64,000 nucleotides of DNA from Tetradesmus obliquus (lineage: Eukaryota > Chlorophyta > Chlorophyceae > Sphaeropleales > Scenedesmaceae): positions 1,674,001-1,738,000 of the forward strand of contig CP126202.1 of the NCBI GenBank assembly GCA_030272155.1, given 5' to 3'. Under the pieces are notes generated by a model. That model saw nothing but the letters and a program-made list of their open reading frames with translations. It was not told the DNA's origin and made no database searches. Positions 8,701-64,000 of this stretch are shown here, in pieces (position 1 is the first letter of the stretch; the number at the start of each line of letters is the position of its first letter). A program made the translations under genes and the position numbers.

Positions 8701-11468
8701 TTACACGTTGCGCATTGCGTGTTGTGTGTGCGGTGCGTGTCCGCGTGCAAATGTGAAGCACACACGTGTGTGGTGACTGTCTGACCATAAAACGCGTCTG
8801 TGCTGTGCTGCAGGTGTGTGCCAGCCTGCGCTCCAGGCTGGAGGCTGCTCACTGCTCACCAGCAAACCACACCGCACGTGGCCAGCACACAATCGCTTTT
8901 GTCAATGTTGATCCAGACAGCCTGGCTGTGCTGTGTTGTACTGCAGGAGTGTGCTGGCCTGAGGTCTAGGCTTGAGGCTGCTCACTGCTCACCAGCACAG
9001 CACACTGTGCGTGGCCAGTGCACAACCGCTCGTGTCAATGGTGTCAATCTGAACCTCAGGACGCGTTTGTGTGCTGTGCTGCAGGAGTGTGCCGGCCTGC
9101 GCTCCAGGCTAGAGGCTGCTCGCGCCTCACCAGCAAAGCACACCGCACGTAGCCAGCCCACAACCGCTTGTATCAATGTAACACAGGAAGCGTGTTTGTG
9201 CTGTACTGCAGGAGTGTGCCGGCCTGAGGTCTAGGCTGGAGGCTGCTCACTCGTCACCAGCAAAGCTCACCGCGCGTGGCCAGCTCACAACCACTTGTTT
9301 CAATGTTTATCCAGACACCTTGGCTGTGCTGTGTTGTACTGCAGGAGTGTGCTGGCCTGAGGTCTAGGCTTGAGGCTGCTCAGCGGCACAGCAGGACGCT
9401 GGAGGCTGAGCGAAACGGCGCGCAGGATCGGCTGGCAGCAGCACAGGCCCGCGAGCAAGCGCTGCAGCAGGTGCGCCACTGCGGCCGGGAACTGCGGGCT
9501 TGCTGTTGGGGCTCTTGAGTTTAATTGTCACCCTTGATATCTACAGCACATGGCTTTCAATCAGTTGCAGCCGTTTGCACTAGGCCACAGGCTTGGCTGT
9601 GCCACGGCATCTGCAGGTGCTGATCATGCTGAAGCTTGGGTGCTGCGAAGGCAGCAACAAGAGCCAGATGCAGAATGAATGAATGAATGAGTGAAAGAAC
9701 GAATGAGCTACGTGTGGTGTGTTGAGACTCGCCATCCGCGTAAGTTAAGGGAGGAGGTGCGTGTGACGATGAGGATACCCCATGCGCCTTCACACCTCCT
9801 ACCATTGATGCAGAGTGATGTGCATGCCGGCTTGCCATGCGCCGCAGCCCATGCATCTCCAGTTGCGTCAGCCTACCTGCCATACTGCTCATGAGCGTCT
9901 GCTGGCCAGCTATAACACCGGCTCTGCCATGCGTTGCTGAACGTCACATGCACTTGCCTTGCTGCTGCTGCTGCTGCTACTGCAGGAGCTGCAGCAGCAG
10001 TCTCGCCAGGACCAGGAGCGGCTGTATGAAGCCAGCCAGCAGGTGCAGCAGCTCAGCAGGGAGCGGGAAGACCTGCAGCAAAAGCTAGAGGCCCTGCAGC
10101 AGCTGTATGCAGCTGCCGCTGAGAGGGCTGACCATGCTGCTGCTGTCGCAGCAAACGCTGCTGGCAGAGGGTTGACGGCTGCTGCAGGTGACTTGGAAGC
10201 AGCAGCAGCAGCAGCGGGAGGTGGGATGGCTAGAGGTGACAGTAGAGGGTTTACGTTACGCTTGGATGGCGTGTCCAGCTTGAGCATTGATGATGGTGTT
10301 GCCGAAGGCGCAGCTGGCTCCTCGCAGCAAAGCTTGTCAAGCCTAGCCTCAGGCACAGGTAGCCAACAGCAGCAGCAGAGTCAAGGCAAGCCCAGCACGA
10401 ACGGTGTAAGCTTGCAACAACAGCAGCAGCAGCAGCAGCAGCTAGCCAGATCGATGTCGAGGGTGTCCTCCTCTGGCAGCAGCCCCTCTCATCATAGCAA
10501 CTGGGCCCGGCAGCAGCAGCAGCAGCAGTGGCTGCACGGCAACAGCAACAGCAAGCTGTCAGGCGACGCAGTGCTGCAGCTGCAGCGCTCGCTGCAGCAG
10601 CTGCAGCAGGAGCTGGCTGCAGCAGTGCAGGAGCGGGACGCTGCTCAGGAGCAGCTGTACCAGGCTGTGACGCGGGCGGATGCTGCTGCAGCAGCGCTGC
10701 AGGATGCTGAGAACTGGAAGCAGGGGCAGCAAGACGCGGAGAGGAAGGTAAGGCTGCTGCTGCTGTTGTGTGGCATGGCTTACACTGGCAGCAACTCGCA
10801 CCGCCTAGATGCAACTTGGCAAGTGCCGTATGATTCTGGCGGGATCTGTGCTGGACGGCCGTGTTGTTATGACAGCAGCACAGGCATGTTCAGGCCATTG
10901 CTCGGTTCTGGTTCCTCTCGTCTGCTTGTTGGTAAAGAGCATGTGGTAGCGAATTTCCTGGAGACAGGCACAGTAAGAGGTGGAAAAGAAGGTGAGGTTG
11001 CTGCTGTGGGTTGGCATGTACTGGCAGGCAAGCTTGGCTTTAGAGCAGCGGCAGCGGCAACAGCCTGGTGGCACGAAGCAAGCCACAGCAATAGCGTAAG
11101 TGGCTACTACAGTGTTTTATTACTGTTTGCCCTGCTTGCTGTAGCTTGCTGCAGCTGCAGGTGCAGCCTTGGACATCATAGCGGAGCACTCTGACTGTGA
11201 CTTTCTGCATGTTTTTGTTTGTTTGCCTGCTGCTTGCCTGCCTGCTTGCTTGGCTACTGGGGCCTGCTGTGTGCTGCTGCAGCTGGAGGTGGCCATGGAG
11301 ATCATCGGGGAGCGTAGCATACGCATAGAGGAGCTGGAAGCAGACATCATAGACATGAAGGCCATCTTTCACTCACAGCTAGAAGAGGCAGTAGGTCAAG
11401 TGACGGCACTGACGCAGCAGCTGGCTGGCGGCAGCGAGGCAGGTGCATGCGCTGACGCAGCGGCTTGA
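5735..11468 (+). CDS. Long coiled-coil protein with TMF/golgin-candidate-5-like C-terminus
   Basis: Seven exons: 5735-5891, 6039-6115, 6348-6451, 6783-7512, 9345-9470, 9986-10747 and 11283-11468; 2142 nt, 713 residues, all phases consistent. ATG 5735 opens an immediately heptad-like MASEQELQKAKAKLAALN. Residues 1-400 are almost pure coiled coil (LKEEFARRLGEQQRTIDILK; LSSKVSELEKSTRKLNQQIR), then Gln/Ala-rich. About 400-650 is low complexity, then coiled coil. The last exon (653-713) reads EIIGERSIRIEELEADIIDM followed by KAIFHSQLEEAV, resembling the conserved C-terminal TMF domain (GEK...VEEL..D..D.K..Y..Q...L) of Golgi-tethering TMF1 and plant golgin candidate 5. By family it would be a peripheral Golgi tether binding Rab6-type GTPases; that role is inference. 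Intron 4 holds a Z-DNA-like tract and a splice-acceptor array, intron 5 a retroelement fragment. Confidence 0.6.
7555..8770. repeat. 1.2-kb alternating purine-pyrimidine tract in golgin intron 4
   Basis: Almost unbroken GTGC, GCAT, GCGT, TGTG and CGCG words on the plus strand, so purine and pyrimidine alternate for over a kilobase. There is no fixed repeat period. The long minus-strand frames full of His, Thr, Arg and Cys here are artefacts of this composition. Confidence 0.75.
8780..9400 (+). repeat. Five-fold tandem array of splice acceptor plus exon start (golgin exon 5)
   Basis: Five units of about 127-138 bp, each with TGTRCTGCAG followed by exon-like sequence starting at 8814, 8947, 9085, 9212 and 9345. 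All encode a version of CAGLRSRLEAA. Only the last runs on into the full exon (QRHSRTLEAERNGAQDRLAA) and ends at a donor after 9470. The others lose exon homology after about 40 bp and run into a shared spacer. Confidence 0.85.
9667..9814 (-). mobile_element. 132-bp 5'-truncated non-LTR retrotransposon insertion with 8-bp target duplication
   Basis: Sequence 9675-9806 matches the 3' terminus of the element at 21934-23870 (21934-22046 on the plus strand) with only scattered substitutions. It starts on the plus strand with (ATGA)n, the reverse complement of a (TCAT)n tail, so the element lies on the minus strand. GATGCAGA flanks both sides (9667-9674 and 9807-9814). A tetranucleotide tail, extreme 5' truncation and a target duplication are standard marks of target-primed reverse transcription. 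It lies in golgin intron 5. Confidence 0.85.
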
Positions 11469-15366: not shown

Positions 15367-18300
15367 ATGTTGACTATCTCACAAACATCAAGCTCACGTG
15401 GCTTCTGCACTCCACGAGCGAGCTTCGCAGGAAAGCATGGGGTCAGCACTCAGAGCCGCCCGCAGCTCGCATCGCTCATGCAGCAAGCGTCTAAGCCTTT
15501 GTTTATAAGGCCAGTAGCAGAGGTGAGCCTGCCGAGGCAGCTAGCCCTACAATTCGCCGTGCTACAGCTCCCTTCACCGTGGAAGATAGTAGCCCCTTGA
15601 TCACTGCACAATCTCGGCGAGCGCAGCTAACATAAATACTTTTAAGTTGTTTCAGGTGTCAGACGTGGCCGTTGTACGCGATGATGCGTGCCAGGCTGGG
15701 CAGCATGACACCAGCAGTGCCGGGCAAGTGCTGCCTGACAGAGGCAACGAGAACAGCTCGCCCAGCGTATCTTCAGGAGCAGCGTTTGCCGCTCTGCACA
15801 GCACTGCTACTGATGTCGTGAAGGTGGTGGAACTGAGAGCAGCAACAGCAGCAGCAGAGGGTGCTGTTGATGCAGCAGCAGCGTCACCGGCAGCGGCAGC
15901 AGGAGTGACACTGCCGCTGCCAGCTTCAGCGGTGCCTAAAGAAGCAGAGCAGCAGCATGGGGCACTCCTCACTCAGGTGCGTGTTGACTGTATTCCAGCT
16001 GCACACAATGTTTGGTCTTTCTATTGCTGCTATCATAGCTACAGAGCTGGTTACTCGCTGCTGTTGGCTAGGGTGCCACTGACAGTCCTACAGACGATTA
16101 GCTCACACGTATACGTCAGCGCAGAGTACAGCGTGGTACTGCATCCATGAAACTTGCAGAGCTAGCTGTGCACACTCGTTGCTGTTCTTGGCATCAAATC
16201 CTGGTCTGGTGCGCCTGTCCCTGAATTTCTACCTGAGGTCCCACCCACACACATTTCACGCAGCTGTGCAACTTGGGACGCTGTGCTAACTCCATGCAAT
16301 GTTCACTGTGCAGTTCTCGCCGAGCTGCGGCTGCTCCTTTGGATGCTGTCACTAGCAGCAGCGGAGCCCTCCAATCGTATGCACTGAGCCCACATAATGG
16401 TAACCTGACACTCTCTACTTGCCCACTGTGCAGTTCTCGCTGAGCTACGGCTGCTCTTTTGGGCAGCATGTAGCCGTCACCGGCAGCAGCGCCCAGCTGG
16501 GCTGCTGGGACCCATTGAAGGCAGTGCCACTGACCTGGCACGCCGGCGACACCTGGAAGGGCCGATTGCACCTGCCCATACCCAGCGACAGGTGAGCCCC
16601 TGCAGTTGTTGTTACGGTCGATCATGTAAAGCATGGAGAAGTCTACCTTGCAAATTGTGGTGCGGAATGTTTGGAGTACGTCAAGTACGTGACACTTGTT
16701 TCTTGTGAGTTCTGCGGTTGTGAGCTGCATGTGTTTGTGAAGCCCCAAGCTGGGCTGCTGGGACCCTCTGCAGGCAGTGCCGCTGACCTGGCACGCTGGT
16801 GACACCTGGAAGGGGCGCCTGCAGCTGACCATTCCCACCGACAGGTAAGCCTTGTAATCTGAGCGGACACGTGTGTGTTGCAGTTCATGTTGCAATGTAT
16901 CTGCTGCTGACCTGGCACGCGGTGGCACCTGGAAGGGGCGATTGCAGCTGACTACACCAGCTGACAGGTGAGTTTGACTTGCAAATTTGTCTTGCACTTT
17001 ATACGCAATGTGTCTGCCGCTGACCTGGCACGCGGGTGACACCTGGAAGGGGCGATTGCAGCTGACCATCCAGAGCGACAGGTGAGCCTCGTGGGATGTC
17101 ATGATTCTCAACACTTTTGCACATTGCGCAGCCACCATTCACCCGTGCATGTTGCCCATACCCTGCAACATCTGCTGCTGCCGCACAGGCCCTTGGAGTA
17201 CAAGTTCATAATCCGCAACGCAGACAACAGCGTGCATCGCTGGCAGGACGGCCCAAACATCACACTAGCTAAGCCTGGGATGGCCCTGGCAGCAGTGGCA
17301 GGTGCTGCTGCAGGCAATGCAGTGCTGCAGCAGCTGGTGCTTGATGTGAGGGACTCCTGGGACCAGGCCTTGCACTCGCAGCGGCTGCTGCCGGGGCTGC
17401 GGCAGCAGCAGCAGCAGCAGCAGCAGGAAGCGGTAGTGCAGCAGCAGGTGCCGCCTGTTCCGGACGTGCTAGCTGCTGATGTTGAGGCAGCTGTTCCTGC
17501 AGCAGCAGCTGCAGCAGCTACTCCTACTCCTGCTACTGCTGCTGCTGCTGTAGCAGCTAGCCAGTCACAGCGCGTGCAGTTCAGCACGCAGCTGAAGCTG
17601 GACTTTGGGCAGGCTGTAGCTGTGCTGGGCAGCTGCAGCAGCCTGGGCGAGTGGCAGGCCAGCAGGGCAGTGCAGCTGCAGTGGAGTGATGGCCACAGGT
17701 GGAGCGGCACTGCAGAGCTGCCTGCAGGGTGAGTGGTATGTAGTACATAGTAATATGAGGGTTACACAGTGATAGTAAATAGTGTGTGTTGTTTTCGGGT
17801 GCAGTGGAGTGACGGCCACAGGTGGAGCGGCACTGCAGAGCTGCCTGCAGGGTGAGTGCTATGTAGTACACAGTGACATAGTTTGTTTTGAGTTTTTTTG
17901 GTGCAGTGGAGTGACAGCCACAGGTGGAGCGGCACGGCTGAGCTGCCTGCAGGGTGAGTGATATGTAGTACACGGTGACATTGTATATTGTGTGTTTTGG
18001 GGGACAGTGGAGTCATGGCCACAGATGGAGCGGCACTGCAGAACTGCCTGCAGGGTGAGTGTTGTGTGGTACACAGTGATGTGAGGTATTGTATGTTGTT
18101 GTCGGGTGTCTGGTGTAGTGCTTCTGTGCTCTCCATGCAGAGCTGCCTGCAGGGTGGGTGCTGAGCAGTGACATGAGCTGCAATGTGCTGTTGATTGGGT
18201 CCCATGTATGGTTGACTTGCGGTCATTCCCAAAGCAACATATGTTATAGGTACAGCTGGCTTTGCAGATACAGTTCGGCAGTGGCATGACTGCCTTTCTG

Positions 18301-25565: not shown

Positions 25566-28500
25566 GGGTGGGGCCACTAGCCCAGCTGCTACGTTGGGTG
25601 TCTCCAGTAGCACTGGCGGGCCGCTGTCAAGGCTGACTGCTTTCAGGCCAGCGTCAACAACAGCACATGCTCTGGCTGCTGACACACTCATCACCTGGCA
25701 GCAGCAGCAGCACAAGCAGCAAATGCATTAACAGCAGCACTGGAGGGTCGCTGTCAAGGCGGACAGCTTTCAGGCCAGCATCAACAACAGCACAGGCCCT
25801 GGCAGTGGACGCACTCATCACCTGGCAGCAGGAGCAGCAGCAGCGGCTGTGTTTGCTCTCGTCGTACTCGATTGTTGATAATCTTGTGATGGTTACAACA
25901 GCTCAAATTGTACATGCACGACTCATGGACTGCACAGCAGCATGCACCGTGTGTTGGCTCTTGCCTGTGACCACCCGCAGAGACTGCAGGTTCAAGCTGC
26001 TGGCTGTGCACAACCCTGCAACAGCTCACGCACCTATTGATAGCCGGCTTGCAGATAATGTACACCTGAAGCTGTACCTCACCTGTGTGAGCACCCACAG
26101 CGACTGAAGATTGATGCTGCTGGCTGCTCACAACCCTGCAACATCTCAGGCACCTATTGATAGCCGGCTTGCAGATAATCCACACCAAAAGCCATATCGT
26201 ACCTGTGTGAGCACCCACAGCGACTGCTGCCACTCGCCCTGCTGCCCACCCAGCTGCAGGTTCCTCGCATAATCTGCATCACCGAAGGCAAAGGAGCCTG
26301 CAGCAGCGGCAGCAGCAGCAGTAGCATGTGGCAGCACAGTGTCAGCCGGCGCGGTTGACAGCAGCATTTCAATAGTATCCTATTGCCTACTGCCTTGATG
26401 AAACTTAACTTCTGGCACCTGTCGCCTGGCTGTACCAGACTGCCTCCTCAAGCAGCAACTAGTTGCAGAAATGTGCTCAGTGAATCCGAGGGTGACAGTT
26501 GCCCCAGCTTACACAGCCCTAGGGCGCAAGCGGATGGGTAGAGGGTGTGGAGCCCAGGGGCGCCGCCCCTGGCCACACACGCCCTCTTACCCAGGAGCTG
26601 CAGGGCTGCCTGGGTAGTCACTCACTCACTCACTCACTCACTCACTCACTCACTCACTCACTCACTCAGCTTACACGTGTCTACTCACCTGGCTGCACTT
26701 CGTTGAACACTCCACTGGCTGCCTCCAGCTGATACGTGCTTGACGTGCCACCAGACACCAGCTGGCACTGCAGCCCAAACTGACCATCAGCTTTGCAACC
26801 CACTGGCCAGGCTGCACGTCAGCAGCCCAGCCACTGAACATGTGACCAAGCAGATGAAGCGCTGCACCAAACTGGGCACCGTAAAGGCAATGTTCCAAGT
26901 CCACATGTCAACCACAGCCAAGCTCAACAATCAAACGATAACACTGTATCACTCACCTGGCTGAACTTCGTTGAACACCCCACTAGCCGCCTCCAGCCGA
27001 TACGTGCCAGAGCCGCCACCAGTTGCTCACGCACTCACACGCAACAGTTGCATTATGACATAAATAAACACCGACATCGGCCATGCAAAAACCACCAGGC
27101 AGCGCATACACGACTTCAAAGCAGCACCACGCTGTGCACTGTCAACGGCACAGCTACGAATATTCAAGGCGGTGAGTGACAAAATAGCTCACCTGGCTGC
27201 ACCTCGTTGAACACGCCACTGGCTGCTTCCAGCCGATACATGCCATGCCTGAGCCGCCGCCAGTCGCCAGCAGGAAGCTCACTCGGCCACTGTCCAGGAC
27301 AATTCGGTGCACAGCATAGTCCCTGCAAGCCAATTCCTGGCTGCTTTTGAGCCAACACACCAGTGCAGAGCTGCACACGGCCCACACAACAGCACACCCA
27401 ACATTTGAAAACGTAACAATGTTTCTCTAGAACACACCTGGCTGCACTTCGTTGAACACGCCACTAGCCGCCTCCAGCCGGTATGTGCCAGAGCCGCCAC
27501 CAGTCACCAGCTGACATTTCAACCCAGCCTTGCTGCTGATTGCCTCCACTGCTGCTGCTGCCTTGTCAACCACTTTTTGCACTGCTGCTGCTCGCTGCTG
27601 CGGGTCTCGCACGTGCTGCAGCCCTCCGTGGTAAGCTTGAATGCCCTTGAAGTTCACACTGCCGTTCTGCTGTGAAGACAGGCGTGAAATATGTTCTGCC
27701 AGCCTAGCTGCCTCTTCAGGAGTGTCCACGCCACACCTGGCAGGGAGCGGCAAGCAGAAAAGCCAACCAGAGCAGAAAGAGTGAGGTGAAAGTCAGAGCC
27801 AGAAGAGAGGATCCATGGAAGCAGAAACAGTGAGGTTGCACATGCTGCAAACTTGCGTGGTAGGTTTTATGCCCTTGAAGTTCACACTCCCGTTATGGTG
27901 TGAAGATAACCGTTGTGCTCCACCAGACTGGCTGCCTCATGACAAGTGGCCACACCACACGTGGCGGAGGTGTGGAAAGGAGTGAGGGGAAGCAGGAGGA
28001 GTAAGAACAGGCACAAAGAGCAACACCAAGCGAAGGAAGTGAGCACAAGCCGTTACCATTACCTTGTGGCCAAACGCGCCACCATTTACTGACAATTCTG
28101 CATGACACTGCACCCACGGCACTGCAGCACAGAGAGCCCTCCGCACCTGTCCTGTCCTGCGTTGATCTCCACCAGTACGTCAACGCGGGCGCCTCACTGC
28201 GCCGCCCAGGCCCCCAACCTGCTGTCACACTTCAGACTGCAACACCAACACCAACACAGCACGGTATATTTCATCACCTGTCCTGTCCTGCATTTATCTC
28301 CACCAGTACGTCAATGCTGGTGCCCCACTGCCGCTCCCCACCCCACCCCACCTCACCCGCACACCGCCTCAAAGTTCAGCTGCGTCGCAAACAACAATCT
28401 GTTACCTGTCCTGACCCGCGTTGATTTCCACCAGCATGTCAATGCTGGCGCCCCACTGCCGCTCCGCACCCGCAACCCCACACTGCCTCACATTCTCAAC

Positions 28501-30174
28501 TGCGTCGCAACGACGTAAAAGCACAGTACAACTTGTCACCTGTCCTGTCCTGCATTGATCTCCACCAGTACGTCAATGCTGGCGCCCCACTGCCGCGCTG
28601 TCGCTGCCAGCTGCTCCAGTGGTTGCAGGGCGTCCACCACCACTAACACGTGGGCACCTGCAGCCACAAACAGTGATAAGGACGATTACTCGGCAAGCAG
28701 ATATGACATTAATATCTGACGCGATGAGAATGAGTGACGCAGTGCGCTGTTGCTGCCAGCATTTCCACCGGTTACGCAGCCACCACCACAGACACGCGGG
28801 CACCTGCAGCAGCATTGCAATTGCAACAGGCAGTGAGTTAGCGTGCATACAGGACTGCAGCACTTGGCACAAATCTGCTTCTGCCAGCTGCTGCAGGGAC
28901 TGAAGCGCATCCACCACGACTGACACGCGGGCACCTGCAGGCACATTCGCGACAGTGTTCACACCTTCTTTTTTTGTTCACACCTGTTACGCATGGAGTA
29001 CGTTGACACATGATACAGCCACAAGGCTGCAGCACATCCACCACCACAGAGGTGCAAGTGCCTGCAGCCGCATTGCGGCAATTATGGTTCTTGATTGGCG
29101 TCAGCATGCATGCATGCAGTAAAGTTGGCACATGACGCGCTCCACATGTGACGCACGCCAGTGACAGTTGGCGGCAAGCGGGCATGCATGCATCGAGAGT
29201 GACGTACCCTGAGCGTCATTGACAGCAAAACCATGCGTATGCACACAGCAGTAGCAGCAGCAGCTGCAGCAGCAGCTCTGCTGCAGTGTGATGCACGATT
29301 CTGCCGACCTGCGCTAGCGCCACCAGCCGCATGATCTTTCTTGGCGCATGCCACCACCTCAAGAAAATACAGCAGTTTTAACAGGTGCCGCCACCCGTAA
29401 ATAATGCTGTACCAAAATGAACCTCAAACCAGTGCCTACCTTGTGCAGCTAGCGCCACCATGCGTGTTATCTTTGAGGGTGCCACTACTTCGTTGCTGAT
29501 GAACACATCCTGAATGCCGCCAGACACCATCGCCTCTGCCTCCGCCACCTGCAATGGGAAGCAGCGTTTACATAAAAATTGTGCTGCGCGCTGCCTAAAA
29601 GGCTGTGCAGTGTGCCGTTCTCCGCGCTGTACTCATCAACAGCTTGTACTCGTGGATTAGTATGTCATGTCGGATGCGCCCACTTCCTGACAGCACACGC
29701 CCACTGCAGCACGTCCCATGTGATGGCCGCTTCACTTCACAAGTCCATCAATAGGATGGCGATGTCGTAAATCACAGGATGGTGATATAACAAACAAGCT
29801 GCTGCGCCCACCTTCTGGCAGCACACGCCCACCGGAGCGGGCCCTATGTACTTGTTACCTTTTTTCTATGTTTTTAATGATGTCGTGTAACAAACAAGCT
29901 GTTGAGCTTACCTTCTGGCAGCACACGCCCACTGCAGCGGGCCCAACATACTTGTCATCGATTCAAAATGATGAAGTAACCAACAAGCAGCTGCGCTCAC
30001 CTTTTGGCAGCACACGCCCACCGCAGCGGGCCGCATGTAAACGTCATTTTGTTGGAAGAGAAAAACAACAAACCAAGCTGCTGTGCCCACCTTTTGGCAG
30101 CACACGCCCACCGCAGCGGGCCCCAGAAGCCGCAGCTGCATCTGCGCCAGCTGAGGGCACTTGTGCGCCTGCAG

Positions 30175-32993: not shown

Positions 32994-34643
32994 CTGCTTC
33001 TGCTGCTGCTGCTAGTGGTGCTGCTGCTGCCAGTGGCGCTGCTGCAGCACGAGGGGCTTGTGACGCTGGCTTCGACACGTGAGCTGCTGCTGCTGCTGCT
33101 GCTCCTGCTGTCACTGCTGCTGCAGATGACAGGTGCGCAGGGAGTTGCGCAGAGCAGCATGGTTGCACATACCATCTACAACGGCCGGCTTGCCGCGGCG
33201 ATCAATTCCCTCTTGCCGGCCTGCGTCACCTACTTGCCTGCCTGCCTGCCTGCCTCACCTGGTGGATGGCCGGGGCGCTGCGCGTCCAATAGTTTTCCAA
33301 CAAACCCAGCTTGCCTCATCTTTCTGCCTGCTTTCTCGGCAGCTTATGTGTTGAGGCTATGCATCCGTGCTTATGCTTGCTGAAAGCTTTCACCCCGCCC
33401 GCTGAAAGCTTTCACCCCGTCCGCTCTTTGTACATGCCCGGCTGGCCACATAGGGCCCTTGAGCAACTTGGCGTATGCGCTGGACAAGCGGCCTGATGCA
33501 CTGTTTTACTCATGTATTTGTCTTTGCTGTCTGCTGCAATCCTCTCCAGGGCCCCTCAGCAACCTAGCGTATGCGCTGGACAAGCAGCCGGAGGCAGCAG
33601 CAAAGGTGGCGCGAGTGTGGTGGATGGGCGGGGCGTTGCTCGTGCCCGGCAACGTGTATGAGCCGCAAAGCGATGGCAGCGCGGAGTGGAATGCGTTCTG
33701 GGTGAGCCGCCCATCATTGCAAGAGTTGGTGTTCTTAACAAAGCAGCTTGGCCTCTGCTCAGTCGCCTCTTGTACTGTCCGATGCATGCATGTAGCAGTG
33801 TTTCCACAGTCGTTGCTGTCGTTTGCTGCATGCCTGCTTGCGCAGAACCCTGCCGCCATGGGCCTGGTGTGCAGCAGCAGCCTCACACTGAGACAAACAA
33901 AAAAGCAGCTCAGCATCCGGCCAATTGCATGCCGTACTGTTCAACATAAGCATGCAGCAGTGTTGCACAGTCCTCGTTGTCAGGCATGTGGATGTCTGCT
34001 GCCTGCATGTGCAGGACCCTGCCGCCATATGAGTGGTGTGGAACAGCAGCCCACACTGAGACAAACAGAAAAGCAGCCCAGCCACCCGCCAAGTGCCTGC
34101 CGTACTATTGGAACCTAGGCATGCAGCAGCATGCACACAGTCCTTGCTGTCAGGCATGTGGATGTCCGCTGCCTGCACACGCAGGACCCTGCCGCCAGGG
34201 GCGTGGTGTGGAACAGCACCCCACGCTGTGGAAGACAGAACAGCAGCTCAGCGGCCAGCAGGTCGCCTCCCTACTGTCTATCATGAGCATGCAGCAGTGC
34301 TGTCACTTTTTTTTCTGCCATGTCTGCTGCCTGCATGTGCAGGACCCTGCCGCCATGGGCGTGGTGTGGAACAGCAGCGTACCTCTTACCCTGGTTCCCC
34401 TGGACGCAACCAACAAGGTGGGCGCCATCAGTTTGTTGTACTTTTGATGTTTTCTGGGGTTGCATTGCCACATGTGTTGCCTGTGGCATGCCACCCCAGG
34501 AACAGAAAGCTGTGTGCATTGCCGCTGCTCCTAGGAGCAGGCCTGCTGTTGCTGCTGCTGCCGCCGCAGGCGCCCATCACGCCTGATCTGCTGTACAGCT
34601 TCGGGCTGCAAGCTGGCTACGCTACACATACATCTGAAGTTCT

Positions 34644-46113: not shown

Positions 46114-46115
46114 TC

Positions 46116-50026: not shown

Positions 50027-50080
50027 CTTCGCCTTGTTTTGCATATAGAACCCCTAGAAAACATCTGCTGAAGAACAAGG

Positions 50081-53487: not shown

Positions 53488-56400
53488 GGCAGAGGCTGAC
53501 TGTAGAGGGTTTGCAGAGGATGCAGAGATGCAGCACTCACAGGACAGTGAGGACGCTGAGGAGCATCAACAACCTGTTGCTGCTGCTGCACGCAAGGCTA
53601 CCCCACACAAAAGAGCTGCAGCAGCAGCAGCAGGGTCAGGTCGAAGCCGCAGTGCTGCTACCAGCGGCGGCAGGCGGAGGAGCAGCACTCAGCAGCAGCA
53701 GCAGCAGCAGCGAACACCCACGACCCCCAGCGGTGGCATCAGAGCCGCCGTGCAGCACAAGCGGCAGCAGCAGCAGCAGGCAGCCAGGGCTGCGGGGCTG
53801 GGTTTAGGGTTTGACCTGGAGGGCTTGCAGGATGTCCGTGACAACTTTGACCTGGCAGATCTGGAAGAGGGTTTAGGGGCTGGCCAGGGTTTGGGCCTTG
53901 CGGCGCCTGCAGGGCAGGGTGGTAGTGGGACTGCTGCGGCTGCTGCTGGTGGTGGGGGTCAGCTGCTGCCAGAGCCGCTGCTGCTGGAGGATGCCGGCAG
54001 TGGGCTGCGGCTGCAGGTGAGCGGCTGCTGAGCAACTTATACGTATGTACATGCACATATCAGGGACTCAAAACTCATGCCTACCAAGTTGACAGGTTCG
54101 TGACTCATTTCTGCTGAGAACCTTTTTTTACATGTTTGACCTGCTAGGATGCAATTTGTTTCCATTTTTCTGGCAGCAACCTCATATATGCTGCCAACAG
54201 CAGCTGCAGTGTTCTCTTAAATGTTGGTGGGGTCAGCTGCTGCCAGAGCCGCTGCTGCTGGAGGATGCCGGCAGTGGGCTGCGGCTGCAGGTGTGTGGCC
54301 TCTGATCATGCTGAACGTGCTTGCATGCCGCAATGCATGCCTACTAGTAGTGGCTTGCACATATGCACAGCACAGTGCTTGCCAGCTGACACGGTTGGCA
54401 GTGGCGGTTAACACACTAACACAGTGTGCAGAACACAATGACAGAAGCAACAATTCTTGCTGCCAGCAGCTGTTACAGCGTCCGCAAGATGCATACGCAT
54501 GCCTCCATGTGACTTGCCCACTGTGCTTCCTGTCCTCGCCCGTCAAGCCTGCTACAGCCAGCAACTTCAGTACTTATCGCCCCTCCAATAGCTACACCAC
54601 ATCTCGGGAGAGGTCTGTTACAGGGGTGGACAAGCTATCGTCTCTTCTGTGCACTGTGCGCAGGTGCCTGGCAGCATCAACAGGTGCCTGCATGCCTACC
54701 AGTGTCAACCGCTGCCGGCGCGCCAGGGGATTTGTCAAATACCTGTTATGCTCCATGTTTCTGTGTGCTGCGCAGGTACCTGGCAGCATCAACAGCCGTT
54801 TGCGCGCCTACCAGCGGGAAGGCGTGAGATTCTTGTTCAAGCTGTATGCCCAGGGCATGGGTGGCGTGCTGAGTGACGACATGGGGCTAGGGAAAACGCT
54901 GCAGGTGCGGCCTTCGAAACCCGCCAGGTGCAAGGTGTTTTCTGTTGGTGAGGCTGTATGCCCAAGATATGGGTGGCGTGCTGAGTCACAACATGGGGCT
55001 AGGGGAAACACTGCAGGTCCGGCCTTGCAACCCTGCAAGTTGCAAAGTGGTTTTGGGTTCAAGCTGTATACGCAAGGCATGAGTGGGGTGCTGAGTGACG
55101 ATATGGGGCTGGGCAAGATACTGCAGGTGCGGCCTTCGAACCCTGCAAGCTGCAAGTTTGTTGTTGTTTATGCTGTATGCTCAAGGCATGGGTGGCGTGC
55201 TGAGTGACGACATGATGAAGGGAAATTGCTGCAGGTGCGAGCTTTAAACCCTGCCAAGTGCAATATTTATTGTTGTTTGGGCTGTATGCCCAGGGCATGG
55301 GTGGCGTGCTGAGTTACGACATGGGGCTGGGCAAGACGGTGCAGGTGCGGGCTTCAAACCCTGTCAGGTGCAAGGTGTGTTGTTGTTTAGGCTGTATGCC
55401 CAAGGCATGGGCGGTGTGCTGAGTGACGACATGGGGCTGGGCAAGACGCTGCAGGTGCGGGCTTCGGAACCCTGCAAGGTGCAAGGTGCAAGGTGCAAGG
55501 TGCCTTTTGTTCAAGCTGTATGCGCAAGGCATGGGTGGCGTGCTGAGTGACGATATGGGGCTGTGCAAGACGCTGCAGGTGCGGGCTTCAAACCCGGCAC
55601 ACAACCTATGTTGTGTGTTGAGCTTTGGGCTGTGCAGTTGTTGGTCTGCAGTTGGTGGGTGGCATGCTGAGTGGCGACATGGGGCTGGCAAGTTGCTGCA
55701 GGTGCAACCCTTACCCAGCACGAAGGCCATTTGGCTTTTGCCTGTAGCACTTCTATCGGCTTCAGGTGCTGTGATACCTGCTTCTGCTGCCGGTTTGCCT
55801 GCAGGCCATTGCTTTCATCGCTGCCCTGCTGGAGAAGACTGGCACGCTCACAGATGGGTTACCCCGCAGCTTCAACGCTTACAAGCGGCAGCAGCGGCAG
55901 GTGCGGCGGCGGCAGCAGCAGCAGGGCGCAGGCAAGCCACAGCAACAAGAGGCAGATCATCCGCAGCACCCTGAGAAGGAGATCCTGCCACAGCAGCAGC
56001 AGCAGCAGCAGCATGAAGCAGATACGTACGATTTCCAGGACAACGACGGTGATGAGGAAGCAGCAGCAGCAGCTGGGGCTGTGGTGCTGCGCTGGCCTGT
56101 GCTGGTGGTTGCTCCCACCTCTGTGCTGGACAACTGGGTGGCTGAGTTCAGCAAGTGGGGCCTGTTCCAGGTGCGCGAGGGCTGTTTCTTTTTGTTTTGC
56201 ACTTTGTGAAAACAGGGACAGGGTACAGTCAACAGTGTGGTGATCTTGGGGTTGCGGAAAGTGTGCGACCCTGTTGTTGATGGCATGCTGCGACCAGCTG
56301 GGCTGCCTCTGCCCTCATGCTGCCTTTGATTCGCGCTGGCCTGTGCTGGTGGTGGCTCCTACCTCTGTGCTGGACAACTGGGTGGCTGAGTTCAGCAAGT

Positions 56401-58321
56401 GGGGCCTGTTCAAGGTGCGGTAGCGCTGCTATGTCCCACATCACGGATAGTAATATTCGCAGTTTTTTTTGTGTATCTCATCTTGTGGGATCCACCTGAA
56501 TACAGTCCTGCTTGACAGGTGACCAGCGCCAGCGCCTCCAGTGGTCTGCAGCAGGGGGCTCTAAGGAAGCTCGATGGTGTGCTGTGCGGCTGCCTGTGAC
56601 AGGTGGCCATCTTTGCCAGTGCCAATGCCTCTACAGTGCTGCAGCAGGCGGCTCAATGGAGGCTCGAGGTTGTGCTGTGCAGCTACGACCAGCTACGGCT
56701 GCATGGTGCAGAGCTGGCGCAGCGGCTGGCTCCACACATGGTCATCTATGACGAGGTGAGACGGATTCATGTGTGTATGCTGCTGGTGCTGTTGTGCAGC
56801 TATGGCCAGCTGCGGCTGCATGGGAACGATTTAGCGCAGCGGCTGGCACCACACGCGGTCATCTTTGATGAGGTTTGAAGCATCTAATGTTAAACGGTCT
56901 GAAGAGCTTGTGGAGTGGCCACTGCGGAGTGGCATTGCGGTTCACGAGAGCGGCGTTGTGCAGTTACGGCCAGCTGCGGCTGCACGGGGCTGATCTGGCA
57001 CAGCGGCTGGCTCTACATGCAGTCACATTTGATGCGGTGAGAGCTTGCGGCCTTACTACCATCTTGTCAGATCATTATAGCACGAGGTAACATGTTGGTC
57101 CCTACCTAGCATGCATGCAGTTCAGGGGTCAGGGTTTTGGTTCATTACTCTGCATTGAAACACTAAACCGCCCTCACCTTGCAGGTACACCGGCTGAAGA
57201 ACCCCAAGTCAGGCACCTACGAGGCTGCCAAGCAGCTGCGCACACGCTACAAGTACGGGCTGTCAGGTGGGTCAAACAATGGTCAAACACGGTCAAACTT
57301 GGCCGGATGGTGGCAGATCTGCACTCATTATCAATTTATATACTTTGCAACTTTGTTGGCTTTGTGCATGTGTACCTGCAAAGCCAGCAGCCAACCCAGC
57401 TTTGCTCTGACACACAACAGCTGCGCATACCCCTATGATTGCCCATTCCAACTTGCCACAGCTGGAGTACATGATCACAATCTGCATGCATGTGCTGCTG
57501 CAGGCACCATCATGCCCAACAAGCATGAGGAGCTGTGGGCGGTGCTGGATGCCCTGAACTCTTGCTGCCATTGTTGCCTCAAGGCACACGCTTGCTGTTG
57601 CTGCTGCTGCTGCTGCAGGCACCATCATGCCCAACAAGCATGAGGAGCTGCGGGCGGTTCTAGATGCCCTGAACCCCGGCTGCCTTGGAAACTGCAAAAC
57701 CACCTAATTCTGCTGCTGCTGCTCCTGCTGCTGCTGCTGCTGCATCACTTCAGGCACCATAATGCCTAACAAGCATGAAGAGCTGTGGGCGGTGCTGGAT
57801 GCCCTCAACCCCGGCTGCCTGGGGGACTTCAAAGCATTCTCAGACTTTTACAGCAAGCCTATCCGCAAGGGCCAGAGCAGCACGGCGTCGCAGTATGAAG
57901 TGCAGAAGGTGGGTACAAAAAAAGGTGCAAATACAGTGAGTCATGTCAGCTGGGCAAATTCAAGGCCTTCTCAGATTTCTACAGCAAGCCCATTCGCAAA
58001 GGGCAGAGCAGCACAGCAAGCCCATATGAAGTGCAAATGGTGAGTCATGTAACATGTTATAACAGATCAGTTAGGAGGCTTTTGAGCGGGAGGCTTTTGA
58101 GCGTTTGCAAAGTCTACAGCAATGTTGTGAACAGATGTGACATGTTATGAAATGCTGTGCCATGTTACAGCAGCTGATATGCGTACATTCGTCATGATTA
58201 TCATGCAGAGGTGGCTGCTACTGATCAGGGCAGCTGCGCAGACGTTGTTGCGCTCCTTTTGCAAGCCACAGCGCGTCGATGCAAGAAGATGCTGCTTCTG
58301 CTTCTGCTGCGCCTGCTGCTG

Positions 58322-58358
<37 letters not shown>

Positions 58359-59110
58359 TGCAGGGTGCAGAGCGGCTGGCGCGGCTGCAGCGTGCGCTGC
58401 AGCGCGTGTACCTGCGCCGCACCAAGGCCATCATTGCAGACCAGCTGCCACGCAAGCGGGACAACATCGTGTTCTGCCAGCTCAAGCCGCTGCAGTACAG
58501 GTAGGGTGTAAGATTCAATTCAGCTATTATCGTGACTGACACGTCAGCGGATTCATCAATAAGCGTCCCGATGAAGGGCTGCTGGCTTGAGTCAACGCTG
58601 CTGCTGCTGCCATTTTCATGCCCTCGCTGTTTCAACCCGCTAGCTGTCTCTCAAGCAGCAGTATCCCCAACTAGTGATGTGAAGTTATTTCGCTGCGGCA
58701 GCAGCAGCAGCAGCAGCAGAACGTGTGACCGCACCCTTGCCAGCCCTGACTTGCAGGCTGTGAACCACCCTGAAGTTTTTTCCTGACTTGAAGTCATGCC
58801 ATCGCTGCTGCTGCTGCCACTTGCTTTCCACAAATGATATACATTTGCAGGGCGTATGACCGCACCCTGGCCAGCCCCGATCTACAGGCCCTGCGGCGTG
58901 CCAAGGAGCCGTGTGACTGCGGCTCAGGCCTGTTCAGGGGCGCATGCTGCCACAGGTGTGGGGTTTAACGTGAAGGGGTTGGGTGGGGTTTTGCAGTCAA
59001 TGTTAGAATGTAGTAGAAACTATAGGTGAGTCATACCTGCATTTCAGCAGCATATATGGGTCACCACCTTGGAAATCATGCTTTCTTATCCCACCCTGCC
59101 ATTAGCAGCA

Positions 59111-59156
<46 letters not shown>

Positions 59157-62100
59157 AGCCAAGTCCCGGAGGAAGAAGGTGGCATGCTGTGGCCGCACCT
59201 GCATAGTAATGGCTGCTGCTGTTGCCCTGTTGTTAGTGACACCACTGCTGCTGCTTCCGCCGCTGCTGCTGCTGCAGCCAAGTGCCCGAGGAAGAAGCCG
59301 GAGTGCTGTGGCCGCACCTGCACTGCTGCGACTGCAGCGACCCTGACTGCAAGCGGCACAGGCCGGACGGCTGCGCGGAGTACTATGCAAGCATCGGCAG
59401 CCATGCTAGGTGTGCAGAAGCAGCTAAAACAGCATTTGACTGACTGTACAGATGTAGCTCCAGCGTCATTCTCAGGCGGAAAGCTGCAATACGTGGCAGC
59501 AAACTGACTGCTGTTCCGTGAAGGGATGCTCGGCTGCTGCCAAGCATTTCGCACTGACGCCTTACTTAGCATCAGCTGCTGCTGCTTGGTCGAGCTGCGG
59601 CTGCTGCTGCTGCTGCTGCTGCTGCTGCAGGACGACCTGCCCCAACTGTCTCAGCCTGCCAGCCATCAGCCTGCTGCAGAAGATCGCCAACCACCTAGAT
59701 CTTGTCAGGCCTGATGCCGCACTCAGGGACACCAACGAGCGTCAGGTGAGGGGTTGCAGGTTGTAAGGTCAGGACTTTGGATCTTAGAACTAAGCTGTGT
59801 GCAGGCTTCCAACTGCCTACAAACTGCGGAGTATGGTGCAGCCGCTGCCAGCGGCCATCAGCCTGCTGCAGAAGATTGCCAATGACCTTGACCTATTGCG
59901 GCCTGATGCCCAGCTGAGAGACACCAACGAGCGCCAGGTGATGGTTCAACAGTTGGGGCTTGGGCGTGTTTTCGGCGTTGGGATCGGGTTTTGTAGTTGT
60001 ACACCTAAACAACATCAGAGCTGAGCAGGCAGCACTAGTAGGCAGTGTTACACAAATCGGCAAACGTGGACCTGCCACTGCTGCTGCTGCTGCTGCTGCT
60101 GCTGCAGTTTGACTACGAGAAGCGTGTCGCTGAGATGGTGCTGGGCTGTGATGCTGCCGCGCTGGGCGGGCCAGTGGCCAGCAGCGGCGGCTGGCTGGCT
60201 GCATCTGATGAGGCGCACTGCGGCAAGATGGTGGCACTACAGGTGAATCATAACACAAGCTGTTGGGTCTTGCAACATGGGTGTGATACAGCGCTCAACC
60301 TGAAAGGCCGGCTGAATCTGCTCATCTCCCTCTATTTGCTGCCGTTTGACTCTCAACCTTGCAAGCCACGCACTGCGGCAGTATGCTGAGCAGGTTTTCA
60401 GATGAGGTTGGAGGTTGCATGCTAGGTGGCCAGCAGCGGCGGCTGGCTGGCTGCATCTGACGAGGCACACTGCGGCAAGCTGGTTGCACTACAGGTGCAG
60501 CTTGTTTAGTGCAACCCTTCAAATCAACAAACCAAACATGGCTACATGAGAAAGGTACAGCTGTTGTTGCTAAAGCCCTGCTGATTCGCTTGCCACCTGA
60601 GTTTTGCTTTCGAATGATGAACTGTGCAAGATACTTGCTGCCACAGTGCGGTGAGAAGTTGGGCAGGGTCCTTGGCTGAAGCATGCTCAACCTGCCTGCT
60701 GCGGCGTGCAGGGCCTGCTGTCCAAGTGTTCATGCTGAGTCATGGGCGGGACACAAAGTGCTGCCCAAAACAATGTTACATATCTGCTCACTTTCTTCGG
60801 CATCTGCGGTTCTGCGCTGCTTCCTGCAGGGCCTGCTGTCCAAGTGGCACGCGGAGTCATGGGCGGGGCACAAGGTGCTGCTCTTCAGCAGGACCCCGGT
60901 ATAGAGCTTCAAGCTCTAAGCAGTGCTGCCGGTTCAACGAGCGAAATGCTGAGATTACAGCATTGTGACTTGCTGTTCGCTGTGTGCAGGGCCTGTTGTC
61001 CAAGTGGCATGCTGAGTCGTGGGCGGGGCACAAGGTGCTGCTCTTCAGCAGGAGCACGCACTGCCTGGACCTGCTGGAGGTGAGCCAGCATGGACAATTA
61101 CTTATGTAGTCTGAAATATGACAACAGGTTATTACAGGACATGATGTTGAGGTTTTTTGTGAAACAAAGCAAAAGATATCATCTGAAGTAGTAGGATGGG
61201 TCGCTGTGACTGTGAGGGTGCTGCTCTTCAGCAGAAGCACGCGCTGCCTGGACCTGCTGGAGGTGAGGATGAGGGTTTGAGGTGTCGAATTGATAATTTG
61301 AAGTTGCACTATAAACTTGGACCATAAACTTGGGCTAGAGTAGATAGTGTGGTTGAACGGTGGTTCAAGCAGCATACACAAAGAATCTACTGCCTGCAGT
61401 CGTTGCAACAGCCACTGCATGTGCAGGTGCCGGCCGCAACTGCACGGCAGTGCAGATGATGAGTCGTTATCTCTCTGTTCCTGTTTCCTTGCAGGCCTTC
61501 GTGCAGCGAGCCGGGTACGACTATGTGCGCCTTGACGGCTCTACTCCCCAGAAGGCAAGGCAGCCGCTGGTAGACCAGTTCAACGGCCGGCATAGCATCT
61601 TCCTGTTCCTGATGAGCACGGTGGCTGGGGGAGTGGGCATCAACCTCACCGCAGCAAATAAGGTGGTGAGTTGACCTGGTATTGCTTTGTAGTTGAATTG
61701 CAGTTTAGAGGACCGTTCAACAGCAGGGCCAGCATATCTTTGTTTTCAAGGAAGGAAGTGGCCGAAAAAGGAAAAGGCGTCTCCAAGGCTCAATAGCCAC
61801 TTGCAAAGTTTTACAGCAGGCCCAGCATCTTCCTTCTCATATATGTGTACACAGATGTCGGTGTTTTCAGAAAAGCCACTGTTGCCGAGGTGATGTGTTG
61901 TGACTTTACTGTATGCCGCTTCCTGTAGAATGTGACTTTCCCTGAAGCGTTATTACTTGATGGAATTTTTCGCGTCATGCCAGGTCATGTCTCAAGCTAT
62001 GTTACCTGTAGAAGAGGCTCACGACCCTTCAAACCCTGAACCTAAACCTATCTGTTTTTGCACTGCAGGTGGTGTTTGACCCCTCCTGGAACCCAGCACT

Positions 62101-63577
62101 GGACCTGCAGGCGCAAGACCGGGCGTACCGCATGGGGCAGACACGTGACGTGGAGGTGTACCGCCTTGTGGGCACAGGTGGGCAGTACAGCTTGGTGCCT
62201 CCATGTACTGCCTGGGATACAAGCAGCAGCAGCTGCACTTGGCACAAGCCTTCCTGACCTGTTTTAATGAAGATATATTATGCCTTGAACACCTTTTGCA
62301 CGCTTGAGGAGATGGTGTACCGCCGCCAGGTGTACAAGCAGCAGCAGGCCGACATGGCGCACGCCAACCATGTGCTATGTTATATCCTTGAAACCTTCGT
62401 CAAAAATTCAACTGCAGGCACGCTGGAGGAGCTGGTGTACTGCCGCCAGCGTGTACTGCTGGCAAGCATAATGATCATAGTGAGAACATGATATTAGCTA
62501 GGAACTTTGCCGAGCTAAAAATAATAGCTTTAGCAGGCACCATCTCCCTGCACCTGCAAAGCGCCGCAAAGTGCCAACACATCACCGAAAAATTATTGTG
62601 CAGCACCAGAATCGGCCTGCTCGCTGTAATATATCAAATACTGTTTTATGTTGTTTGTGTTTGCGTGCAGGCACGCTTGAGGAGCTGGTGTACCGCCGCC
62701 AGGTGTACAAGCAGCAGCAGGCCAACATGGTGCTGGAGGGGCGCACGGAGGCACGCTACTGGGAGGGAGTGCAGGCGCGTTGCTTTAATATATATTATAT
62801 CATACAATATAATGCGAGTGAGAGATGAATTGGGAGCACTGAGATTGCATTGGATTGAGGTGCCTTACTATATACAATTAATTTGGGACATTTCACATGT
62901 CTTATGTTTAGGCCAACATGGTGGTGGAGGGGCGCACGGAGGCGCGCTACTGGGAGGGAGTGCAGGCAAGACACACTGCAGAAAGCTTTCCTTTGATCCT
63001 CATTGTGTTTGCTACACAGTTGTTGTAGCTGTGTGTGCTGGTGTATGTCACGCATGGTATGAGCGTCATTGCCAATCTTTGGCAGCCAGCAAGCTGCACA
63101 TCCGTGCGGTGTTTGGGCAATATATGCATGAATGGCTAGGTTGCAATTCATATGGCAGCCAGCATGGTGCTGGAGGGGCGGACGGAGGCGCGCTACTGGG
63201 AGGGAGTGCAGGCACGTACTGACAATCATTTTGCTACTTCAGCAGATTTCAACCATGTTTTGTGCTCACTTAGCCCAGTTCATGAGGCAGGCGTGCATAG
63301 TGCTGCACAAATTGCTCCTGTAGATGATGCGGATGATTGACCTGGCACATTGGTACAACAAGTCAGGAGCATTGCATCAGCCCATGCAACCAACTGCAAG
63401 TGACCTGCGGCAATGTTCCACAAACTAATGTGCAAATTAATGTGCAACAATGTACTTGTTGCTGCTGCTGCTCCTGCTGGTGCTGCTGCTGCTGCTGCTG
63501 CTGCTGCCAGCAGGGTGACAAGAGCAAGGAGGGGGAGCTGTGGGGCCTGGCCAACCTGCTGCACTTCAGCGTCCACC

Positions 63578-63654
<77 letters not shown>

Positions 63655-63734
63655 CAGGGTGACAAGAGCAAGGAGGGGGAGCTGTGGGGCCTGGCCAACC
63701 TGCTGCACTTCAGCGGCCACACTGTGGAGACCCC

Positions 63735-63802
<68 letters not shown>

Positions 63803-63913
63803 TCCTTACTGCTGTATGCATCCTTCATCAACGCAGGGTGACAAGAGCAAAGAAGGGGAGCTGTGGGGCCTGGCCAACCTGCTGCGATTCAGCGGCCACA
63901 CTGTGGAGACCCA

Positions 63914-63969
<56 letters not shown>

Positions 63970-64000
63970 CAGGGTGACAAGAGCAAAGAAGGGGAGCTGT
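51971..64000 (+). CDS. SWI2/ERCC6L2-like Snf2-family ATPase, 3' end outside window
   Basis: Exons: 51971-52000, 52098-52254, 52489-53063, 53318-54016, 54776-54904, 55805-56170, 56603-56755, 57185-57266, 57754-57908, 58364-58500, 58851-58955, 59278-59409, 59631-59745, 60108-60242, 60990-61079, 61495-61662 (or 61665), 62069-62177 and 62671-62774, then one beginning with [11 protein letters not shown]; 1147 residues so far, all phases consistent. Residues 1-480 are low complexity with KRRRLP. Helicase blocks: [26 protein letters not shown] (Walker A), [21 protein letters not shown] (DEVH box), [101 protein letters not shown] and [15 protein letters not shown]. Order and the Cys inserts match plant SWITCH2 and animal ERCC6L2, nuclear ATPases linked to DNA repair. 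Most introns carry junction arrays. Confidence 0.92.
52627..52680 (+). repeat. (GCA)n run coding poly-Ala in SWI2 exon 3
   Basis: About 17 GCA/CAG units within the exon; read in the gene's frame they give an Ala tract in the low-complexity N-terminal region. Confidence 0.9.
54230..54296 (+). repeat. Copy of SWI2 exon 4 end plus donor
   Basis: GGTCAGCTGCTGCCAGAGCC to GGGCTGCGGCTGCAG then GTGTGT duplicates the end of exon 4 (true end 54016) inside intron 4. Confidence 0.9.
54660..55710 (+). repeat. Eight-fold donor array of the Walker A exon, plus an acceptor copy
   Basis: The end of exon 5, encoding [20 protein letters not shown], plus donor recurs with ends at 54904 (true), 55016, 55126, 55234, 55344, 55454, 55578 and 55701; spacing is 108-124 bp. 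A copy of the exon 5 acceptor and start (GCAGGTGCCTGGCAGCATCA) lies at about 54661, before the true start at 54776. The next real exon starts at 55805. Confidence 0.92.
56330..57045 (+). repeat. Donor copies of SWI2 exons 6 and 7
   Basis: The exon 6 end ([20 protein letters not shown]) recurs at 56340-56413. The exon 7 end ([19 protein letters not shown]) has its true end at 56755, and recurs ending near 56872 and 57037. Each copy is followed by GT. Confidence 0.9.
57500..58045 (+). repeat. Junction copies on both sides of SWI2 exon 9
   Basis: Acceptor plus start (GCACCATCATGCCCAACAAG) at about 57505 and 57620, and at 57754 (true). Downstream, the exon end ([15 protein letters not shown]) plus donor recurs at about 57955-58038. 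Runs of (CTG)n precede the copies. Confidence 0.9.
58690..59280 (+). repeat. Acceptor copies before SWI2 exons 11 and 12
   Basis: The start of exon 11 (TGACCGCACCCTTGCCAGCC) recurs near 58725 ahead of the true start at 58851. The start of exon 12 (CCAAGTCCCGGAGGAAGAAG) recurs at 59159 ahead of 59278, after a (CTG)14-type run at about 59113-59155. Confidence 0.85.
59805..59937 (+). other. In-frame alternative version of SWI2 exon 13
   Basis: From an acceptor GTGTGCAG to a donor after GAGCGCCAG, 133 nt, same phase at both ends as exon 13 (115 nt). It encodes [20 protein letters not shown] and [12 protein letters not shown] against [20 protein letters not shown] in exon 13. It would replace CPNC by a Cys-free leader. 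It could be a mutually exclusive exon or simply another junction-array copy. Confidence 0.5.
60420..61270 (+). repeat. Junction copies around SWI2 exons 14 and 15
   Basis: The exon 14 end ([22 protein letters not shown] in two parts) plus donor recurs at 60426-60494. Exon 15 acceptor plus start (GGCCTGCTGTCCAAGTG) recurs at about 60710 and 60829 before the true start at 60990. The exon 15 end ([14 protein letters not shown]) plus donor recurs at 61217-61262. Confidence 0.9.
62290..63215 (+). repeat. Junction copies around SWI2 exon 18, with GC donors
   Basis: Acceptor-side copies (CACGCTTGAGGAGATGGTGT) at about 62301 and 62418 precede the true start at 62671. Donor-side copies of the exon end ([16 protein letters not shown]) follow the true end at 62774, ending near 62967 and 63210. 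All three exon ends are followed by GC, not GT (GCAGGCGCGT, GCAGGCAAGA, GCAGGCACGT). Confidence 0.88.
63458..64000 (+). repeat. Acceptor array of SWI2 exon 19 with expanded (CTG)n, cut by window end
   Basis: GGTGACAAGAGCAAGGAGGG-type exon starts follow acceptors at 63514, 63658, 63837 and 63973. All encode [16 protein letters not shown]. Between them lie (CTG)n runs of up to about 75 bp (about 63580-63650, 63736-63800 and 63917-63967). The copy contiguous with the complete exon is at or beyond 63973. Confidence 0.9.

Follow-up and report, generated by a model that had tools for sequence, protein, structure and literature searches.

Tandem copies of exon edges and their splice signals lie beside exons in introns of the green alga Tetradesmus obliquus

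Why would the introns of an alga hold repeated pieces of the exons that flank them? The question is raised by a 64,000-nucleotide stretch of the Tetradesmus obliquus genome (GenBank assembly GCA_030272155.1, contig CP126202.1, positions 1,674,001 to 1,738,000, forward strand), which we call the window and whose positions we count from its first letter. A sequence-only reading of the window had described, in five genes on both strands, tandem arrays of splice-junction fragments that obey a side rule: copies upstream of an exon contain its acceptor and exon start, and copies downstream contain its exon end and donor. We followed this pattern in an SNF2 helicase gene (54.8 to 62.8 kb, plus strand), in other genes of the window, and in random stretches of the same genome. 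We confirmed that junction copies beside exons are real.

The helicase is ERCC6L2-like. In our hand-built model, exons A to N (54776..62774) and the start of a further exon, O, form a closed frame of 670 amino acids, and exons A to N align with the transcript-derived homologue P0001 at 67% identity over 532 residues with 2 gaps. The 14 modelled exons are A (54776-54904), B (55805-56170), C (56603-56755), D (57185-57266), E (57754-57908), F (58364-58500), G (58851-58955), H (59278-59409), I (59631-59745), J (60108-60242), K (60990-61079), L (61495-61665), M (62069-62177), and N (62671-62774), the last with a GC donor; exon O starts at 63973 or past the window end. No segment is repeated in any of the SNF2 homologues listed (best 120 of 1692 over the cut-off), and therefore the copies are not part of the SNF2 protein. 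The earlier claim that only the member joined to the full exon gives a closed frame stood for this gene, where only those members yield the protein.

Copies were found at 10 of the 14 exons, upstream ones with the acceptor and exon start and downstream ones with the exon end and donor. Exon A has seven downstream copies of its end and donor, with a unit of ~110 bp in which the intron part is repeated too (54945..55705), and one upstream copy of its start and acceptor (54645..54702). Downstream copies of an exon end and donor follow exons B (56333..56428, 93.8% identical), C (two copies, 56774..57042), E (57950..58045), I (59845..59944), J (60426..60497, 94.4%), and K (61217..61267, 96.1%). Upstream copies of an acceptor and exon start precede exons E (two, 57498..57698), G (58716..58758), H (59129..59203), and K (two, 60701..60898). 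Exon N has two upstream copies of its start, the outer of which lacks the AG (62298..62456), and two downstream copies of its end, both with the exon's own GC donor (62910..63217). The start and acceptor of exon O are also repeated (63457..64000), after (CTG)n tracts; the last member passes the window end, and which member is the working one is ambiguous. Exons D and M lack copies, exon F has only microsatellite matches, and exon L has a weak interior match downstream. Other exceptions are a 23-bp interior match upstream of N, an upstream match at C that starts 13 bp inside the exon, and further microsatellite matches. As a separate observation, (CTG)n/(GCT)n tracts ending in CAG lie at 57710, 58290, 59114, 59575, 60078, and 63460-63966; they occupy the place of the acceptor polypyrimidine tract and recur in some copies.

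In self-comparison, short direct repeats form clusters throughout the genes. Positions 54320-63440 gave 15 clusters of local repeats, all 15 of which touch an exon. A member covers a real junction in 14 of these clusters, whereas 694 shifted junction sets average 7.6 and never exceed 12; the proposal that the duplicated units span exon-intron boundaries was thus borne out. Counted by junction, 14 of 28 are covered, and shifted controls give a mean of 10.4. This measure alone is not exceptional, because the shifted sets reach 16 of 28. We found no inverted repeat pairs within 800 bp of each other in the same region.

The genome comprises 104.66 Mb in 17 contigs with a G+C content of ~56%. Its G+C content and intron-rich genes are similar to published values for the species, which are given in an excerpt of PMC5966456 as 57% G+C, 7.8 introns per gene, and a mean intron of 462 bp. 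The random sample consisted of 20 random 10-kb stretches, 19 of them predicted to bear genes. We predicted exons with a simple gene finder trained on the SNF2 gene and the random loci themselves, with only L034-L037 held out. On the SNF2 gene, which is in the training set, it returned all 14 exons exactly and predicted 10 extra exons. Among 325 predicted exons, 31 were copies of a neighbouring, better-scoring exon, and 294 were retained. The random-stretch models are partly verified by matches to Pfam families of six pieces from six loci. We excluded from the match counts anything with <20 bp of exon, simple repeats of period 1 to 6, predicted genes scoring <60, matches past the neighbouring exon or >1500 bp off, and the 31 predicted exons treated as copies. 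Later tests were restricted to "start" or "end" copies that had sufficient flanking sequence and a predicted splice site (n = 68, 74, or 75). The gene finder returned nothing for the aldolase gene, and so the aldolase and CBM20 families were set by hand; copy-copy identity was taken from 15 hand-set families, one of which (aldolase-4) gave no copy.

We found that the side rule held for 30 of 31 matches in the window and 45 of 48 in the random stretches (37 versus 6 at the random loci under an earlier gene-model setting). There were 95 matches in all, comprising 79 that cover one edge, 9 "whole" matches, and 7 "interior" matches. In adjacent introns, 77 matches were on the plus strand versus 1 on the minus strand, compared with 5 and 5 in nonadjacent introns and 8 and 7 outside the gene. 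The one-edge counts uphold the side rule and contradict the outcome of no bias, and the strand counts show that the matches are direct and adjacent. Neighbouring copies are mostly spaced 72 to ~280 bp apart, with one single copy 487 bp off, and arrays reach 8 members including the exon, in agreement with the 2 to 8 proposed. We attribute the side rule to tandem duplication that spans a junction while the exon stays whole, since the spare copy then falls on the intron side. The rule is thus no mystery; geometry and purifying selection are enough.

The sequence-only reading had placed such arrays in almost every multi-exon gene. This is too strong. It fits the window, but copies were present at 10 of the 19 gene-bearing random stretches and at 26 of 244 predicted exons, and in the four held-out stretches at only 1 of 57. 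Duplicate clusters in the random loci were exonic in 32 cases, genic but nonexonic in 19, and intergenic in 11; some of the nonexonic ones may be overlooked exon edges. The window gave 25 exonic and 17 nonexonic clusters. A repeat-rich stretch holds 3 of these 17; the other 14 are in genes for which the gene model failed (coiled-coil, CBM20, hydrolase, and aldolase).

The two parts of a copy differ in how far they have diverged. Among 74 copies, identity to the exon was flat at 0.85 to 0.89 from the junction to 80 bp inside; outside the junction it fell to consensus level and then to 0.33 to 0.49, compared with 0.24 to 0.30 for unrelated introns. When two intronic copies were compared with each other (47 pairs, 21 of them from one array), the exon part was 0.845 identical and the intron part was 0.636, with unrelated introns at 0.48 to 0.58. 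The two values came nearest to even in CBM20-b (0.90 and 0.77), hydrolase (0.84 and 0.72), and exon A (0.83 and 0.68). Exon identity to the master copy was at least as high as copy-copy identity in 11 of the 12 families with both values, the start of exon E being the exception. The intron side was clearly similar in 13 of 49 families, leaving 36 (73%) without clear similarity; in simulations this share was 19% at 2x divergence, 60% at 4x, and 77% at 6x. Under the assumed indel rate, these simulations suggest that the intron part has diverged ~5 to 6x as much as the exon part, whereas neutral decay gives ~2x. We concluded that plain duplication and decay does not explain the exon-intron contrast. 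The 36 families are nevertheless still more similar on the intron side than unrelated introns are (P = 0.0002), and this small excess favours a common tandem origin.

Light-harvesting paralogues of the same genome (L032/L033 and L029/L031) have exons that are 98 to 99% identical beside introns that are diverged or barely alignable. In one pair the intron is 82% identical; in the other, with an exon at 98.7%, the intron beside it could be aligned only by force (65%, 85 gaps). Alike exons beside diverging introns therefore occur elsewhere in the genome. The exons look as if homogenised, in a comparison where codon bias and purifying selection act as well. Separately, L030:1527-1776 and L033:182-426 are light-harvesting introns at positions that have no intron in the other four paralogues fetched and therefore point to recent intron gain or loss.

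The splice signals of the copies are mostly intact, as had been claimed. Without re-registration, the splice dinucleotides were intact in 57 of 68 copies, and the splice letters were kept at 0.865, no better than the exon part. Copies with an unrelated intron side, once re-registered, had the acceptor AG in 21 of 25 cases and the donor dinucleotide in 21 of 22. At positions +3 to +6, the donors of such copies scored 1.14, compared with 1.55 for real donors and -1.57 for random GT. Pyrimidine content before their acceptors was 0.635, compared with 0.519 at random positions in the same zone (P = 5.6e-6); this control replaced one based on random AG, which was biased by CAG repeats. Their acceptors scored below real ones (P = 0.015; pyrimidine part, P = 0.054), and for donors the comparison gave P = 0.12.

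We considered coding constraint, in which the copies are translated as alternative exons, since 205 synonymous versus 159 nonsynonymous differences suggested it. Counting once per family, modelling synonymous changes in the exon, and polarising copy-specific changes weakened this idea, and a smaller excess persists. Copy-specific changes in 13 multicopy families were 53 nonsynonymous and 29 synonymous, near the neutral expectation of 30% synonymous. We also rejected two structural candidates. Copies are not complete skipped exons, because their interior ends, judged by eye among the matches listed, have no consistent donor or acceptor. Nor do they reflect a full exon cassette inserted into a resident exon and splitting it, since in long exons a gap separates the upstream from the downstream partial copies; in a 303-bp exon of L015, for example, they reach position 71 and resume from 244.

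The account we favour, although we hold it with rather less than even confidence, is that duplications across junctions were followed by recombinational recycling, with the exon as the anchor. It would begin with direct tandem duplication of ~90 to 280 bp across an exon-intron junction, a step seen in outline. The member joined to the exon would stay working, and the spare members would be intronic and spliced out, giving the side rule. The exon-derived part then stays exon-like while the intron part diverges far more, which is the contrast that we measured. Exon-derived stretches of ~25 to 100 bp would come to be the sole lasting homology in the array. Because selection fixes the exon, unequal exchange and gene conversion would recur through these stretches, and new copies would be reset to the exon sequence. 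Occasional contraction would delete an inner unit, so that an outer copy becomes the working edge. The copies would in effect be spare junctions rotating in and out of use, with their exon part and splice signals maintained as their intron flanks drift. No cellular function for them would be required. Exon-to-copy exchange explains why exon and intron parts contrast and why copies cluster around the exon. The direct orientation and adjacency of the copies, their residual intron homology, and the near-neutral copy-specific changes also count in favour of the account. The mostly genuine splice signals beside unrelated intron sides fit junctions that were recently in use, and junction rotation, a step we infer rather than saw, would explain why those signals are retained.

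Several results weigh against this account. We saw no exchange event or role swap directly, and the mismatches lack the clustering that short conversion tracts would produce (4 of 54 at P < 0.05). In 4 of 11 families, the copies have more departures from the exon in common than chance predicts (CBM20-a, P = 0.003; exon E start, P = 0.004; exon K start, P = 0.043; aldolase-3, P = 0.05), and those families were therefore not reset one by one recently. Exchange alone explains neither these shared differences nor genuine signals on drifted intron ends. Single-copy families have a synonymous excess (121 of 213, 45.5% expected, P = 0.0009; SNF2 exons E and I supply 25 of the 121) that simple conversion does not predict. 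Frame-breaking length changes occur in some copies (5 of 34 single-copy families). In 10 of 16 families the nearest copy had the higher similarity, a result too weak to argue for or against an order in which copies are pushed outward.

The main rival, which we judge unlikely but the most serious of the alternatives, is that selection keeps the copies as decoy or auxiliary splice sites, with exon-edge enhancers and signals that would recruit or buffer the spliceosome. This fits the AG and donor dinucleotides retained beside unrelated intron sides, donor scores near those of real sites, the raised pyrimidine content before copy acceptors, and the conservation of the exon part relative to the intron part. 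It fits poorly with identity that stays flat up to 80 bp from the site and with exact matches of 94 to 100%, which exceed what enhancers need. It also has to accommodate acceptors weaker than real ones, splice letters no better kept than the exon part, and 218 of 244 predicted exons in the random loci that have no copy. Plain neutral tandem duplication across junctions, with independent decay and neither exchange nor function, is disfavoured and in our view improbable. It accounts for the side rule, the orientation, the adjacency, and the near-neutral copy-specific changes, but it expects equal exon and intron identity between intronic copies, where we found 0.845 versus 0.636, and about twofold intron divergence, where the loss of similarity needs five- to sixfold at the indel rate assumed. 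The suggestion that the copies are a by-product of a slippage-prone genome fares similarly; it explains their birth and leaves the contrast between exon and intron parts unexplained.

Slightly more doubtful still is an origin from diverged haplotypes or a hybrid partner, by inter-allelic unequal exchange or by interleaving in the assembly. A homologous allele would be expected to bring similar exons beside unrelated yet genuine intron ends, together with a synonymous excess. However, families with three copies whose intron sides are mutually dissimilar at the level of unrelated sequence (CBM20-a, 0.50; aldolase-2, 0.52) would need several haplotypes, most copy-specific changes (53 of 82) are nonsynonymous, and several copies are 94 to 100% identical to the exon, which an assembler should align and not insert. 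We give the least credence to copying of just the exon edge and its 2 to 8 bp of splice signal; splicing factors might, for example, protect RNA fragments that are then inserted close by. Such copying would suit the 19 of 33 downstream exon-end matches that end 2 to 8 bp past the junction and the often unrelated intron side of even close copies. Direct orientation, adjacency (77 versus 1), and residual intron homology favour tandem duplication instead. A scan for copies of exon-exon junctions gave output dominated by self matches.

The same architecture was found in three other genes of the window, with exon edges set by hand: CBM20, nucleoside hydrolase, and a putative D-threonine aldolase on the minus strand, whose name is based on weak subthreshold Pfam matches and the word of the sequence-only reading. 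In CBM20 (plus strand), the exon end at 16591 is followed by three copies with junctions at 16844, 16967, and 17081 (16488..17088), and the exon end at 17727, or 1 bp later, is followed by three with junctions at 17850, 17952, and 18053 (17677..18097). In the hydrolase (plus strand), three copies precede the exon start at 34343 (33826..34417), and one copy, at 33452-33500, precedes the exon start at 33560 (33452..33701). In the aldolase, four copies lie downstream of the exon end at 30091 (29680..30123) and three lie downstream of the exon end at 27438 (26683..27526); the exon at 28657-28540 has two upstream start copies, with a third, weaker one seen by eye, and three downstream end copies (28144..28945). 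A tandem array of ~133-bp units on the plus strand (8790..9397) precedes a predicted exon at 9395-9470, and in the coiled-coil gene (8.8 to 12 kb) two copies follow the side rule. The claim of five genes on both strands therefore stood for SNF2, CBM20, hydrolase, and aldolase, and for the coiled-coil gene on predicted exons only. Outside the window, part of PRP8 in L011 aligns to solved PRP8 chains over four exon joins, with only X marks misplaced, and thus the spliceosome's own core gene carries exon-edge copies. For both SNF2 and PRP8, the copies are missing from homologous proteins.

Other features of the window include a 579-amino-acid open frame on the minus strand (22099-23838) that to our reading resembles a retroelement protein. 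The region from 39000 to 50200 is repeat rich. It holds a nearly identical 158-amino-acid frame three times on the minus strand (40504, 42343, and 43421), a 158-amino-acid frame at 47564-48040 that recurs within 49542-50153, and exact 165-bp tandem repeats at 45168-45646.

The nearest known process is internal gene duplication across junctions (cited in PMC3443670 and PMC4974935), which is likewise tandem, lies within genes, and includes intron-exon boundaries. Our copies are direct, adjoin their source, and cover an intron-exon boundary. Unlike in internal gene duplication, the duplicated edges leave the protein unchanged (SNF2 and PRP8 were tested), arrays lie on both sides of exons, and the exon part is preserved relative to the intron part. 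In potato RdRp, tandem duplication of an intron-exon segment led to intron gain, according to an excerpt of PMC4974935. The unit described there carries the exon start along with its 3' splice site, polypyrimidine tract, and branch site, and the units here are alike, but that duplicate made a new intron and exon piece, whereas the duplicates here stay intronic. The tandem genomic duplication model of intron gain (Rogers 1989; ATP2A1; both in excerpts of PMC3443670 and PMC4974935) also yields extra splice sites by direct tandem duplication. There, an exonic AGGT is duplicated to give a new intron, whereas our units span existing junctions inside introns. Introners, too, are linked to large-scale intron change, mainly in fast-evolving lineages such as green algae (PMC9860276, in excerpt). 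They are dispersed as near-identical introns among many unrelated loci, whereas the copies here are adjacent and specific to their own exon, which speaks against dispersal. An ordinary minisatellite or tandem array has even similarity along its unit, unlike the 0.845 versus 0.636 found here. Mutually exclusive duplicated exons are complete exon copies with both splice sites, and only 9 of our 95 matches were whole-exon matches. Like decoy or pseudo splice sites, the copies appear, from sequence scores, to have splice-site-like strength. Among the matches listed, no title or abstract opening in the open-licence literature describes arrays on both sides of exons that remain exon-like inside introns.

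We tentatively suggest, as a possibility held less firmly than the recycling account itself, that splice junctions in this alga are a recycled stock. Spare modules, each an exon edge, a splice signal, and a short intron end, may be renewed from the exon by recombination and be able to take over from the working junction. Intron ends would then turn over with the coding sequence left in place. If this is true, there would be a concrete route to longer introns and wholly changed intron ends with exons intact. The copies would also be a natural library of near-identical competing splice sites in which to study how cells pick the right one. They are a warning for gene finders as well, given the extra exons predicted beside the 14 true SNF2 exons and the copies among all predicted exons.

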